Source: Hyphomicrobium sp. (GTDB lineage: Bacteria > Pseudomonadota > Alphaproteobacteria > Rhizobiales > Hyphomicrobiaceae). Taken from it: a stretch of 64,000 nt of DNA. This document shows positions 29,383 to 47,636 of this stretch, in pieces. The notes under the pieces are model-generated. The model was not told the origin of the DNA. It worked only from the letters and a program-made list of their open reading frames with translations, and searched no databases. The DNA is taken from NCBI RefSeq assembly GCF_019753045.1, contig NZ_JAIELN010000012.1, forward strand, positions 62,001 through 126,000, written 5' to 3'. The position numbers were made by a program, and so were the translations under genes. The stretch's first letter is position 1, and every line of letters starts with the position of its first letter.

Positions 29383-29770
29383 AATATGGACACCCGTCTA
29401 AAATCCAATTTTGAAAAATCTGACGTTCGAAGTCGAAAAATTCTCAAGTCTGAAAAATCTGAATCGGTATTTTGAAATCCGAGAACGGCGGCCCGAAAAT
29501 CCAAACCGCGATGAGCGCTTGAGCGTCACAAGCAGGGGATGTGATTCGCAGAGTGCCGTCGAGCGGCGAGCTGCGGGTTTCGATCTCATTGCAGAGAGGC
29601 GTTGCTCAACTTACACGCACGCCGCCTTTCGGCGAGATCGCCGGCGCGTTCAACTGTCATTTCGTGATTTCATTTAAAAAGATACGGCGCGACTTTACGC
29701 AAACTCCACGCCACAGCGGTACGATCAGATATATTTCGCGGCATATTTTTATACTCTGGATCTTTTTACA
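29383..29770. promoter_or_regulatory. AT-rich divergent region between the beta-barrel and LuxR-type genes
   Basis: 388 bp without a gene. A 12-bp direct repeat, tgaaaaatctga, occurs at 29412-29423 and 29451-29462, with a looser third copy (gaaaaattct) between them, all within 80 bp of the barrel start. They may be regulator sites, for example for the LuxR-type protein encoded on the other side. Confidence 0.4.
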
Positions 29771-30445
29771 GTGTTGAAGGGCGTATTAGCGCAGATCGTG
29801 CCTGATCGGGCGGCGATCGTTGAGCGGGACAAGGGCATCGCGTTTCTATCGGCTACGCGATCCATTTATCAGCTCAATGAGCTATTCTACTTCTGTGCAA
29901 ACATTCCCCGGCATTCGAGCCGCGCGTTCGTACATTGTGCTTTCAGCAGTGATTTCGCTGCGCAAGCGATTACGTCTCATCCGATTTCGCCCGAGCAACT
30001 GGCGGGCCTCGAAATCATCAAGCTCTCTCAGCGATGGAAGGAGTGCAATAGCGGTGACGCTGCAGAGTCCGCCATCGCACTGACGGCGCGTGGACGCGAA
30101 GTCGCGATCCTGGGTTTCTCTCGCAGCCCAACCCCTGCCAGCGAAGCAGATGCTGAAGATCCTCTCTCCTCGGCCGAGCTGAAAGCGCTCGGGGATTATT
30201 TCCATAGCCATATGCTCAGACGGAACGGCATCGATACGTCCGATGCGCTCGTGATATCTGCAAGAGAACTCGATTGCCTGAGATGGGTCGCAGCAGGAAA
30301 ATCGGCGTGGGAAGCAAGCGTGATTCTTGGAATCAGCGAGCGCACGGTTCGCTTTCATCTCAATTCCGCGCGGGAAAAGCTCAACTGCACGACAACGACG
30401 CAAGCGGTCGCAATGGTTGTCGCTCAACAACTGATTGCGATATGA
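29771..30445 (+). CDS. LuxR-type HTH transcriptional regulator
   Basis: 224 residues from a GTG at 29771. The C-terminal 65 residues are a clear LuxR/GerE helix-turn-helix (SARELDCLRWVAAGKSAWEASVILGISERTVRFHLNSAREKL). The N-terminal part, about 140 residues, has the length of an autoinducer-binding domain but I do not see its full set of conserved aromatic residues, so the ligand is open. No luxI synthase is nearby, so it would be a solo regulator. Its last 22 bp overlap the end of the convergent secretion-permease gene. Confidence 0.85.
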   Translation: MLKGVLAQIVPDRAAIVERDKGIAFLSATRSIYQLNELFYFCANIPRHSSRAFVHCAFSSDFAAQAITSHPISPEQLAGLEIIKLSQRWKECNSGDAAESAIALTARGREVAILGFSRSPTPASEADAEDPLSSAELKALGDYFHSHMLRRNGIDTSDALVISARELDCLRWVAAGKSAWEASVILGISERTVRFHLNSAREKLNCTTTTQAVAMVVAQQLIAI

Positions 30446-44490: not shown

Positions 44491-46839
44491 ATGCCTTACA
44501 CTCCCGCGCCGCCTCCGCTGCCGACGATACGGCCGAGCTTCGAGCGCGCTCCCCTCGGTTCAGGTCCACGCCGCACGCCTCCGCCGCCGGGCGGTGGGGG
44601 TGGGCGCCGGGGGCCGCCGGCACGACGGGGCGGCCTCTGGACGGGTATCCTCTACGCGCTGCTTTTCATCGTCGCGGTGGGTGGTGCGGGCATCGGCTAC
44701 CTTCTTCTCAATCCGCCCAGCGACCTGATCCGGCAGAAGATCGCCGAAGAGGTGAAGGCACGGACCGGCCGCGATCTCATCATCGCCGGACGGGCGTCCT
44801 TCACATTCTTCCCGGTGCTGGGTCTCTCATTGAAAGACGTGTCGCTCTCGGGGCCGCCCGGAATGGACGGCCCGTTCCTCAATGCTCAAGCGCTTGAGGC
44901 CAGCCTCGATCCGATGACGCTTTTGGAGCGTCAACCGAAGATCACCGCGGTGACGCTCAAGAGCCCTGTGCTGGACCTCCGCATCGATAAAGAAGGCCGC
45001 CGAAACTGGAAGTTCGCGGCCCGCTCCGCGCCGACGCGGCTCGCTGAGTTGCAGATGCGCGGAACGCAGCGCGACACTGCTCCGATAGAGATCGCGATGG
45101 CGGAAGCCGGCGGCTCGGGAACCGATGCGGCCGATCTGAAAATCGAAAACGTCAGGTTGGAGAATGGGACGTTCCGTTTCACCGACGACCGAACGGGGAA
45201 AATTTCGGAAGTCTCGCAACTCAACGTCACGCTCGGGCTTCCGTCTCTTCAAAGCCCGCTCGTCGCGAACGGCAATCTCGTCTGGCGCGACCAGCGGCTC
45301 GACTTCGACGGCAAAGTCGCCGACGTCCGCGCGATAGCCACCGAGAAGCCGACGCAACTCTCCTTCAACGCCCGGAACTCGTTGATCACAGCTTCCTACG
45401 AGGGAGGCGTCATCCTCAAGGACGGGGCTACCCTCGACGGCAAAGTTTCGGCGCAATCGAATTCGACGCGCGGGCTTGCCACATGGTTCGGCACTCAGCT
45501 GCCGCCCGTTAGCGGCTTCGGCCCGATGTCGATCCAGGGAACGCTGAAGACAGCCGGCAACGTGACGGTGTTTTCGGACGCCGCATTCAGTTTGGACGGC
45601 GCTGCCGCCAGCGGACAGATCAAGGTGACGACCGGCGGCGTCCGGCCGTTGGTAGAGGCCGATCTCGCCGTCTCGGAATTGGATCTCAACAAGTATCTGA
45701 CGAGCGCGGTAACCGGCGGGGAAGCAGGCCCTGTCGCGGACGAGGGGCAAGGCAAGAGTGCGGCAACGCCAGCGGCGCCAGCGCCGGAGTCGCCGGTTGC
45801 GCCGAAGCAGCCAACACCGGCGACGCCGGATCAGATCCAAAAATTGTTGGAAGGCTCGAAAGTTTATGGCTTCGCGCAGCGCGAGGGATGGTCGAGCGAG
45901 CCTCTGAACCTGACCCTTCTCGGCGTCGCCGACGGCAGTGCCCGCGTGAGCGTCGAGAAGCTTCATTTCAAGAATATGTCGATCGGCAAGTCATCCGTCG
46001 ACGTTGCAGTCAAAAACCTCGCCATGCAGGCGAAATTCAATGATGTCGCGCTTTACAAGGGGCACGGCAGCGGCGTCCTTGCCATCAATGGATCGGGAGG
46101 CAACGCCGACGTCACCGCCAACTTCAAACTCGACAACGTTTCGGCGTTTCCGTTCCTCAAGGATGCTGCAAATTTCGGCTGGGTTTCGGGTAACGCCAAT
46201 GTCGCCCTGCAGCTCTCGGCAAACGGCGCGAACCAATTGCAGCTGGTTGAAAGCCTCAACGGAACGGCCGGCTTCCAATTCGCTGACGGCGCCATTGTCG
46301 GCTTCAATCTGCCCGGCGCCATACACGGGCTCACGCAAGGCAACCTGGGCGCGCTCAGAACGTCACCTTCGGAAAAGACCGACTTCACCGCGCTCGGCGC
46401 CTCGTTCACGATTACCAACGGCGTTGCGCAGAACCAGGACCTACAGCTGATCAGCCCGATGCTGAAGGTGACAGGCGCGGGAACCGCTCACATGCCGGAG
46501 CGAACGATCGATTATACGGTCAGGCCGAAACTCGTCGCAGCGGCGGAGCCGCAGAAGGGGAACTCCGAGGCGTCAGGGATCGAAGTTCCGGTCCACATCA
46601 CCGGCTCCTGGGACCAGCCTTCCTACCGGCCCGATTTCAAAGCCGTGCTGTCGGATCAGGACAAGACCGTCGAGACGATCAAGCAGATCGGCAAGAAGTT
46701 CAAAGGCAAGAATGCCAACGAAATCGTCGATCAGCTCTTCGGCAAAAAGGCCGACGAAGATCCGACGAGCAGCGCTGCGACCAACAAGAAGAAAGCCAAG
46801 GATCTGCTGAACAAGTTCCTCGGCAAAGAGGCCCAGTGA
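44491..46839 (+). CDS. AsmA-family protein
   Basis: 782 residues. AsmA/TamB-like proteins are inner-membrane-anchored and span the periplasm to move lipids or help outer-membrane assembly. One membrane helix at about residues 49-71 (WTGILYALLFIVAVGGAGIGY) is followed by the AsmA N-terminal pattern LIRQKIAEEVKARTGRDLIIAG and FFPVLGLSLKDVSLSGPPG. The C-terminal AsmA region includes LVESLNGTAGFQFADGAIVGFNLP and GAGTAHMPERTIDYTVRPKLV. Unusually, the helix is preceded by a 48-residue Pro/Gly/Arg-rich cytosolic lead. A Pro/Ala linker lies near residue 420. A stand-alone gene. Confidence 0.92.
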   Translation: MPYTPAPPPLPTIRPSFERAPLGSGPRRTPPPPGGGGGRRGPPARRGGLWTGILYALLFIVAVGGAGIGYLLLNPPSDLIRQKIAEEVKARTGRDLIIAGRASFTFFPVLGLSLKDVSLSGPPGMDGPFLNAQALEASLDPMTLLERQPKITAVTLKSPVLDLRIDKEGRRNWKFAARSAPTRLAELQMRGTQRDTAPIEIAMAEAGGSGTDAADLKIENVRLENGTFRFTDDRTGKISEVSQLNVTLGLPSLQSPLVANGNLVWRDQRLDFDGKVADVRAIATEKPTQLSFNARNSLITASYEGGVILKDGATLDGKVSAQSNSTRGLATWFGTQLPPVSGFGPMSIQGTLKTAGNVTVFSDAAFSLDGAAASGQIKVTTGGVRPLVEADLAVSELDLNKYLTSAVTGGEAGPVADEGQGKSAATPAAPAPESPVAPKQPTPATPDQIQKLLEGSKVYGFAQREGWSSEPLNLTLLGVADGSARVSVEKLHFKNMSIGKSSVDVAVKNLAMQAKFNDVALYKGHGSGVLAINGSGGNADVTANFKLDNVSAFPFLKDAANFGWVSGNANVALQLSANGANQLQLVESLNGTAGFQFADGAIVGFNLPGAIHGLTQGNLGALRTSPSEKTDFTALGASFTITNGVAQNQDLQLISPMLKVTGAGTAHMPERTIDYTVRPKLVAAAEPQKGNSEASGIEVPVHITGSWDQPSYRPDFKAVLSDQDKTVETIKQIGKKFKGKNANEIVDQLFGKKADEDPTSSAATNKKKAKDLLNKFLGKEAQ

Positions 46840-47081
46840 CCTGCTCGATTGTCGCGCTTCGTTCGCTCGTTCGGCGTGTTGTTTTATCTTCGGTTAAGTT
46901 GATGGAACATCAGCGCGAAAAAAAATCCGCATAGGGGTCAAAAAGATCTTGCGTAGGGGGGGCGTTGGCCTCATATGCACCCTCTCTCGTCTGTCCACCT
47001 GCCAACATGGTCGAGGTTTTCCAGAACCAATGAGGTAAGGAGCGGGCGAGTCAAACCTATCTGCTGGTTGGGGAGGGTCAC

Positions 47082-47636
47082 ATGGCCTTTAATGACACCC
47101 TCTTCCAATTGGGGATGGACTTGACTCGTTCAAGCACCGCCCAAGAGGAAGATTTTTCGCGCGCTGCGTTCAACACGGAAGTAGAAGACTCGACGAGTCC
47201 CTCTACTGAACAAAGCGTAAATAGTGCAGGGACTACGATCTTTATCGATCTCCACGGCGCCAAGCGCCTCGACGACGTCAAGTCGGCCGAGCGTGCGACA
47301 AAGCGTGCCGTCGAGAGCTTGGGCCTCAAGCTCAAGAGCCTCCACCTCGATCGCGTCGCTGGCGGCGGCGTGTCGGGTGTCGCGGTCTTGGGCTCCGGGC
47401 ACCTGTCCTTGCAGGCTTGCTCGCGGACCGGCTTTGCCTCCGTCGACGCGCGCGGCTGTGCCGGACTCCAGCCGGCATCCGCTTTGCTCGCTCTCGCTGA
47501 AGCGTTCGGCGCGCGCGAGGCTGTCATCCGGCGGGAACGGACGCTGTCCACCCTGACCGTGCCTGCCCTTCGCGTTGTGCCAAGAGCACCGCGCAAGGTT
47601 CAGCGCCAGAAGGCCCAAGCGAAGAAAGCGGCTTAA
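47082..47636 (+). CDS. AdoMet-decarboxylase (SpeD)-like protein lacking the processing serine
   Basis: 184 residues; GGGGAGGG lies just upstream of the ATG. Residues 50-140 align along their whole length with class 1 bacterial S-adenosylmethionine decarboxylase: IFIDLHGAKRL, GGGVSGVAVLGSGHLSLQ, GFASVDARGCAG. In active enzymes the chain cuts itself at Glu-Ser in SESH to make pyruvoyl. Here the segment reads Gly104-Ser105-Gly106-His107, so the serine is glycine, and the catalytic His of HTWPE is Gln111. The catalytic Cys (Cys126) and the processing-helper Ser98 remain. A 50-residue Ser/Thr-rich lead and a basic C-terminal tail (KVQRQKAQAKKAA) are extra. It is probably not a decarboxylase; role unknown. 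A terminator follows. Confidence 0.75.
   Translation: MAFNDTLFQLGMDLTRSSTAQEEDFSRAAFNTEVEDSTSPSTEQSVNSAGTTIFIDLHGAKRLDDVKSAERATKRAVESLGLKLKSLHLDRVAGGGVSGVAVLGSGHLSLQACSRTGFASVDARGCAGLQPASALLALAEAFGAREAVIRRERTLSTLTVPALRVVPRAPRKVQRQKAQAKKAA

Follow-up and report, generated by a model that had tools for sequence, protein, structure and literature searches.

The open reading frame at 47,082–47,636 on the forward strand of the window, the 64,000-nucleotide stretch of Hyphomicrobium DNA analyzed here, probably encodes a noncatalytic SpeD pseudoenzyme that would be under the control of an undescribed speD leader. Comparison of sequences establishes two features of the locus. A protein of predicted SpeD fold, without the serine that gives rise to the pyruvoyl group, has been kept by selection in a lineage that lacks spermidine synthase. 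The start codon of its gene sits in a conserved RNA that is present in many families of the class and for which two mutually exclusive hairpins can be drawn.

A SpeD homolog without the processing serine

The pseudo-speD reading frame begins with the ATG at 47,082, its stop codon ends at 47,636, and the 184-amino acid product consists of a leader (codons 1–24), a variable linker (25–50), an AdoMet_dc domain (approximately 51–150) and a basic tail (151–184). The original prediction of an AdoMet decarboxylase homolog is borne out by a match of residues 53–150 to Pfam PF02675 (AdoMet_dc; E 3e-11, 44.1 bits against a cut-off of 25), by alignment with T. maritima SpeD (E 7e-5) and by a SpeD-like predicted fold. 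An AlphaFold2 model, built from 56 aligned sequences (the window protein and 55 relatives taken from the best 80 of 123 confirmed loci), has 10-residue pLDDT means of at least 90 across residues 51–150, with a low-confidence lead and tail. The top PDB matches of this fold, 1tlu, 1tmi and 1vr7, are SpeD structures from T. maritima and A. aeolicus, and 1tlu is the best of them (E 5e-8, TM 0.77 by target length). The alignment to class 1 SpeD had been described as gap-free and is nearly so, the phmmer alignment of residues 61–153 having two single-residue gaps. The protein therefore resembles class 1b SpeD (PF02675, TIGR03330; T. maritima 1tlu and 1tmi) in fold, domain length and retention of the Ser55 and Cys83 equivalents, but it is without the processing serine, the preceding Glu and the catalytic His, and it scores 43.7 bits against the SpeD equivalog model TIGR03330, under the cut-off of 75.65.

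The active-site changes are as first predicted. In the alignment to T. maritima SpeD, E62 and S63 of the Glu-Ser processing pair correspond to Ser105 and Gly106 (codons at 47,394–47,399, forward strand, as are those that follow), leaving no serine to become pyruvoyl, and the catalytic H68 corresponds to Gln111 (47,412–47,414). The catalytic cysteine, C83, is kept as Cys126 (47,457–47,459) and the helper serine, S55, as Ser98 (47,373–47,375). W70 and E72, which we take to bind AdoMet in T. maritima SpeD, are replaced by Cys and Arg, so the usual binding of AdoMet by the pseudo-SpeD is doubtful and a SAM-sensing role of the protein is unsupported; the roles given here to E62, S55, F49, W70 and E72 of T. 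maritima SpeD are presumed ones. The same losses recur in relatives. Among 80 named loci, the best 80 of 123 confirmed loci, 26 are serine-less, and the expectation that orthologs share Gly at the processing site agrees with 25 of these, the remaining one having Val. S63, H68 and C83 are essential for self-processing of T. maritima SpeD, according to PMC10407285 (2023).

Acquisition of a new enzymatic function that dispenses with the pyruvoyl group is very improbable. Elsewhere, SpeD homologs in genomes without spermidine synthase have become arginine or ornithine decarboxylases (PMC10407285), a situation like the present one, and Cys126 is kept in this genome. However, those decarboxylases use a pyruvoyl cofactor, and the authors expect S63, H68 and C83 to be conserved in them (PMC10407285), whereas the serine, H68, W70 and E72 are gone here and Cys83 is lost at 18 of the 26 serine-less loci (best 80 of 123 loci). 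Nothing favoring a new catalytic role turned up in the sequence analysis.

The reading as a pseudoenzyme, which we regard as highly probable, also has to account for the state of the gene. The 4.52 Mb genome, 97% complete, contains a single PF02675 match, the pseudo-speD itself, and a hidden functional speD elsewhere was rejected on that ground; the separate functional speD whose presence was to be checked was not found by the profile search. Sequencing error or recent decay was likewise rejected, many relatives having the same residues and the domain being under purifying selection. The claim that the gene is not decayed is upheld by that selection, by identical residue losses in separately sequenced relatives, by the confidently predicted domain and by its position as the lone SpeD of the genome, and much the same evidence supports the proposal of a pseudoenzyme. 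The matched relatives have open frames free of stops. In the domain of 13 serine-less Hyphomicrobium genes, mean pN is 0.083, pS is 0.400 and median dN/dS is 0.15 (Nei-Gojobori pairs), and the protein is therefore constrained; the value is approximately threefold that of 14 intact genes with speE (0.05, same method), so the constraint is looser than on the enzyme. Three small further serine-less groups have domain dN/dS values of 0.20, 0.20 and 0.32, and across five serine-less sets, two of them overlapping, the domain medians are 0.15–0.32.

The pseudo-speD is orthologous to the intact speD of sister genera, with which it shares the leader and an upstream AsmA-family gene (44,491–46,839, forward strand). 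The AsmA-family gene, which probably belongs outside the system, provided an independent marker for a tree; it is upstream of speD at 57 of the 80 named loci (best 80 of 123), and 8 of the other 23 have less than 2 kb of upstream DNA. On the tree of these 57 loci, made by a quick method, the serine-less state needs seven changes, a count that is soft because of the method and because long branches meet, and well-supported branches force at least three. Downstream of the pseudo-speD is a convergent MFS transporter gene. Among named relatives, Hyphomicrobium facile DSM 1565 is the closest, with 97% identity. The gene or its start is present in 34 of 36 family genomes (this genome and G001–G035); the two without it are G005, which is 71% complete, and G029, which is small at 1.8 Mb.

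Another PF02675 protein, shorter (125–127 amino acids) and with an ETSH motif and LDFYTCG, is encoded in addition in three of the 22 genus members (L159:1571–1951, L160:1420–1794 and L161:1336–1710); it is unlike the speD of Hyphomicrobiaceae. It is possibly one of the neofunctionalized SpeD enzymes, and it was not found in the genome studied here.

A separate feature of the locus is that draft assemblies break there. A contig end or a run of N lies within approximately 300 bases of the start codon in 9 of the 34 family genomes with the gene (G004, G010, G012, G014, G016, G017, G022, G031 and G035). Breaks also occur at 6 of the 80 named loci (best 80 of 123), partly in the same genomes; the loci listed for breaks are L032–L039, L017, L005 and L012, and the equivalent region of the window is approximately 47,030–47,300. 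Assembly may be failing there because of strong hairpins, or because different species have the same sequence.

Spermidine synthase and the carboxyspermidine route

Loss of the catalytic serine is associated with a missing spermidine synthase. Among the best 80 of 123 loci, speE lies within approximately 3 kb downstream at 34, all of which have intact E62, S63, H68 and C83. It adjoins none of the 26 serine-less loci, 25 of which have at least 1.2 kb of downstream sequence, and none of the five loci where Cys83 is changed to Ser; a further 13 loci of the same 80 have an intact site and no nearby speE, and two are too short to judge. Those 13 mean that a missing adjacent speE does not by itself signify a dead SpeD. 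At the level of whole genomes, SpeE is found above cut-off in all six family genomes whose SpeD is complete and intact (G027, G028, G030, G032, G034 and G035) and in none of the 30 other family genomes, including the present one, which at 97% completeness has no TIGR00417 (SpeE) match. Weak matches below cut-off occur in four of those 30 (G017, G022, G023 and G025); the G022 match is a fragment lying where a contig starts, and the SpeD of G022 is cut by a contig end.

The carboxyspermidine decarboxylation enzyme NspC is present above cut-off in all 22 genus members, this genome included, where nspC adjoins a saccharopine-dehydrogenase-like gene. The Hyphomicrobium lineage would probably make its spermidine by the carboxyspermidine route, with NspC and the neighboring dehydrogenase; SpeD catalysis would then have fallen idle and been lost. 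NspC also occurs in three of the six SpeE genomes (G028, G032 and G034), so the carboxyspermidine route may predate loss of the serine. In G023 (locus L025), nspC (C110:30167–31279) is just downstream of the pseudo-speD (29516–30058), on the opposite strand and convergent.

Among loci that keep the ESH motif, Ser55 is replaced by Ala at eight (L081, L084, L091, L097, L101, L102, L103 and L111), and at five others Cys83 is replaced by Ser and Ser55 by Thr (L065, L085, L090, L096 and L100). None of these 13 has an adjoining speE. They may be partly disabled enzymes en route to serine loss.

A conserved RNA at the start of speD

The speD leader element is 94 nucleotides long (47,059–47,152, forward strand; covariance model score 110.8 bits) and comprises the last 23 bases of the 5′ UTR and codons 1–24 minus the final base. 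Its box 1, AUCUGCUGGUUGGGGAGGG (47,059–47,077), contains the ribosome binding site GGGGAGGG (47,070–47,077), and its box 2, CCCUCUUCCAAUUGGGGAU, lies at 47,098–47,116, inside the coding region. The strong ribosome binding site originally reported is indeed there, but folding predictions place it inside a paired hairpin arm once the 5′ UTR is added. The Ser/Thr-rich lead of the protein also needs a different reading, its first part, codons 7–24, being the read-out of the conserved RNA. Farther upstream, a promoter-like pair, CTTGCG and CATATG separated by 18 bases (46,948–46,977, forward strand), starts 134 bases before the start codon and is conserved in 6 of 10 relatives examined, and it is visible in a sequence alignment as well; it may act as a promoter. 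Between this pair and the element, at 46,998–47,040, CGTCTGTCCACCTGCC and GGTCGAGG are shared by most members of the genus and, in part, by the 5′ UTR of the family, outside the modeled element.

Synonymous positions in the leader are nearly frozen. In codons 2–24, pS is 0.000 in the 13 serine-less genes, against 0.400 in their domain, and 0.107 in 14 intact genes, against 0.698. In a codon table of 71 of the best 80 of 123 loci (those that start with MA and exceed 150 amino acids), codons 7–14 and 17–23 each use a single codon in every locus that has the majority residue there; three Leu positions, two Ser positions and one Gly GGG are among them, and the mean share of the top codon at conserved positions is 0.98 in the leader (n = 15) compared with 0.54 in the domain (n = 37). 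An exact 26-base core is found at all 26 serine-less loci and at 44 of the 54 others (best 80 of 123), and its first 24 bases are exact at 53 of those 54. The leader element was matched in all 80 named relatives (best 80 of 123); in one of them a contig end truncates it, and another has a run of N. We consider it highly probable that the leader is a functional cis-acting RNA. The freezing would otherwise reflect constraint on the peptide itself, FQLGMDLTRSSTAQ, at the N terminus or as a nascent chain that might, for example, stall the ribosome, and the peptide is, like the RNA, conserved across families. That explanation is quite improbable, since synonymous variation is missing as well, even at the six-fold degenerate Leu and Ser codons, and since some distant relatives (L134 and L135) have paired residue changes that preserve base pairs.

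The element is widespread in the class. In a search of 385 genomes of the class, a covariance model built from 13 sequences (R1) gave matches in 29, and the 28 matches outside this genome stand at a speD reading frame whose ESH, His and Cys motifs are intact. A second model (R2), rebuilt from 41 sequences that were mostly R1 matches, matched 39 of the 385 genomes at E ≤0.01, and in all 39 cases a PF02675 domain follows 53–149 bases downstream in the same orientation. From a separate set of 44 matches, a stricter E-value removed three that were antisense. PF02675 is present in 157 of the 385 genomes, so approximately a quarter carry an element that the model recognizes. Among the 30 best-scoring PF02675 loci, R2 matched 11 at E <0.01 and left 19 unmatched. 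A search of 398 genomes of the phylum, for which the share outside the class is unstated, gave 13 matches, all in the same class; the class and phylum searches used stricter Infernal filters, which miss weak matches. Rfam gave no match at the gathering score in the whole 64,000-nucleotide window, and a known RNA family for the leader (speF, SAM-I, SAM-II and others) was rejected for that reason. Around the gene, relaxing the limit to E 5 brought up three hits that fell well short of the gathering score; one, cow-rumen-3 (E 4.3), runs antisense across part of the element. In eight relatives, at E up to 1, there was one match, away from the element. A tRNA-like reading of the TTCAAG box was dropped, the T-loop fit being only partial.

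The strength of this conservation raises the question of whether the RNA is all that is kept, with the leader, or a small RNA from it, acting elsewhere and the rest of the reading frame a slowly eroding passenger. The leader is frozen in the 13 serine-less genes while the serine-less state needs seven changes on the tree, and one lineage (L104) is barely above the Pfam cut-off, at 27.1 against 25. However, the domain dN/dS medians of the five serine-less sets, the stop-free frames of the matched relatives, the confident predicted fold and the position of all 39 element matches in front of a speD make a passenger improbable.

Two hairpins are predicted in the element. In the OFF form, box 1 is the 5′ arm and box 2 the 3′ arm, and AUCURCUGGUUGGGGAGG, with the ribosome binding site, pairs with CCUCUUCCAAUUGGGGAU. 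In the ON form, part of box 2 becomes the 5′ arm (UCUUCC, 47,101–47,106, and UUGGG, 47,109–47,113), and the 3′ arm is at 47,130–47,152, as indicated by covariation and, for most of the outer two helices, by RNAalifold. UCUUCC pairs with GGAAGA (47,147–47,152), UUGGG with CCCAA (47,140–47,144), UGG (47,116–47,118) with CCG (47,137–47,139) and CUUGA (47,120–47,124) with UCAAG (47,130–47,134), all four helices lying within codons 7–24. Since UCUUCC is used by both, the two hairpins exclude each other.

Covariation favors the ON form. In an alignment of 41 sequences fitted to the ON structure, 91.3% of cells pair, with 35 compensatory cells compared with 6.4 (sd 3.2) in shuffled alignments (0 of 500) and at most 13 in slid controls. 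The 13 seed sequences alone give a small signal (three cells compared with 0.9 shuffled, 10 of 500), and RNAalifold, unprompted, found nine pairs of the outer two helices in the 41 sequences, five with two-sided changes. For the OFF form, 90.8% of box 1 cells pair with box 2 in the 41 class sequences, with six compensatory cells compared with 3.2 shuffled (31 of 500) and 9 to 12 in three slid controls; covariation is weak here because both arms hardly vary. Leaders cut after box 2 fold into the OFF form in 12 of 13 cases, and the full 94-nucleotide elements into the ON form in 7 of 13. The leader of the window folds as OFF at 60 nucleotides (z −2.28) and, with more of the 5′ UTR, at 141 nucleotides (z −2.99), and as ON at 94 nucleotides, where it is no more stable than shuffles (z −0.61). 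A 5′ extension, GAGUCAA/UUGACUC, adds predicted pairs to the OFF form in Hyphomicrobiaceae.

That both folds are predicted across the leaders makes two-state control plausible, and on these models we lean slightly toward a two-state switch. In the OFF state, box 1 with the ribosome binding site would pair with codons 6–12. In the ON state, codons 7–24 would fold on themselves approximately 20 bases into the reading frame, just past an initiating ribosome, and the ribosome binding site would be freed. The exchange of hairpins would turn translation on or off, and its usual task would be to set SpeD output. We think it unlikely that the leader instead serves an RNA-binding protein, either as a fixed operator of translation or as a site of processing. 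The unpaired AA and GA conserved within the ON hairpin, several GGA motifs and an OFF form without strong covariation of its own are consistent with such an operator. The pairing of box 1 with box 2 across the 41 sequences, though slid versions show little covariation, and the shared UCUUCC strand that makes the forms exclusive argue instead for the two-state switch.

Precedents and possible function

A dead homolog retained by selection has a parallel in the trypanosomatid AdoMetDC prozyme, which is reportedly a catalytically dead homolog under selection that activates an active AdoMetDC paralog; PDB entries 5tvm and 6bm7 bear on it by title. The likeness ends with the partner, no active AdoMetDC having been found in the present genome. 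What remains for the SpeD fold in Hyphomicrobium would be a noncatalytic role, most likely in regulation or binding, with the same control kept. A regulatory role specifically in polyamine metabolism is a tentative proposal.

Several described RNAs resemble the speD leader in part. The odc1 motif (PMC8632094) is also restricted to alphaproteobacteria and located at a polyamine gene, with the ribosome binding site paired in a hairpin; however, it precedes ornithine decarboxylase, is mainly upstream and has an 11-amino acid uORF, whereas the speD element is largely inside the reading frame. The speF element RF00518 (PMC1273637) is likewise an alphaproteobacterial polyamine-gene leader, but it is intergenic, approximately 400 bases long and situated at ornithine decarboxylase, and there is no Rfam match at the speD leader. 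The spermidine riboswitch, a SAM-I variant (PMC10853860), is also associated with speD, speE and other polyamine genes, but its variant SAM-I aptamer was not reported by Rfam at the speD leader. The fungal SDC motif (PMC5640933) is a structured RNA at SAM decarboxylase that represses translation; by its description it is set apart as fungal, with a uORF in the 5′ UTR, whereas the speD element is bacterial and overlaps the main reading frame. The parts available of these four papers describe no RNA at the start of a bacterial speD reading frame, and a word search of two RNA discovery papers (PMC2864571 and PMC2704228) found no mention of speD or polyamines. Within open-licence PMC, which covers no preprints and few subscription papers, we found no description of an alphaproteobacterial speD riboswitch or of a speD pseudoenzyme. 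The leader element thus appears undescribed in the literature so far found, where an account of it may have been missed.

A bolder possibility, which we hold to be doubtful at present, is that the leader is an undescribed alphaproteobacterial riboswitch whose sensor, in the first 24 codons of speD, reads a metabolite of the polyamine pathway, and that SpeD has always had a second, noncatalytic regulatory role, exposed in Hyphomicrobium and relatives, where catalysis was lost several times while the switch and the fold persisted. Repeated loss of the serine without discard of the gene points to a hidden second function of SpeD, which would be directly testable in these lineages without masking by catalysis. 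An RNA structure that overlaps coding sequence is of a kind missed by searches confined to intergenic regions, and the speD leader is a candidate, and a compact one, for regulating polyamine synthesis throughout a bacterial class.
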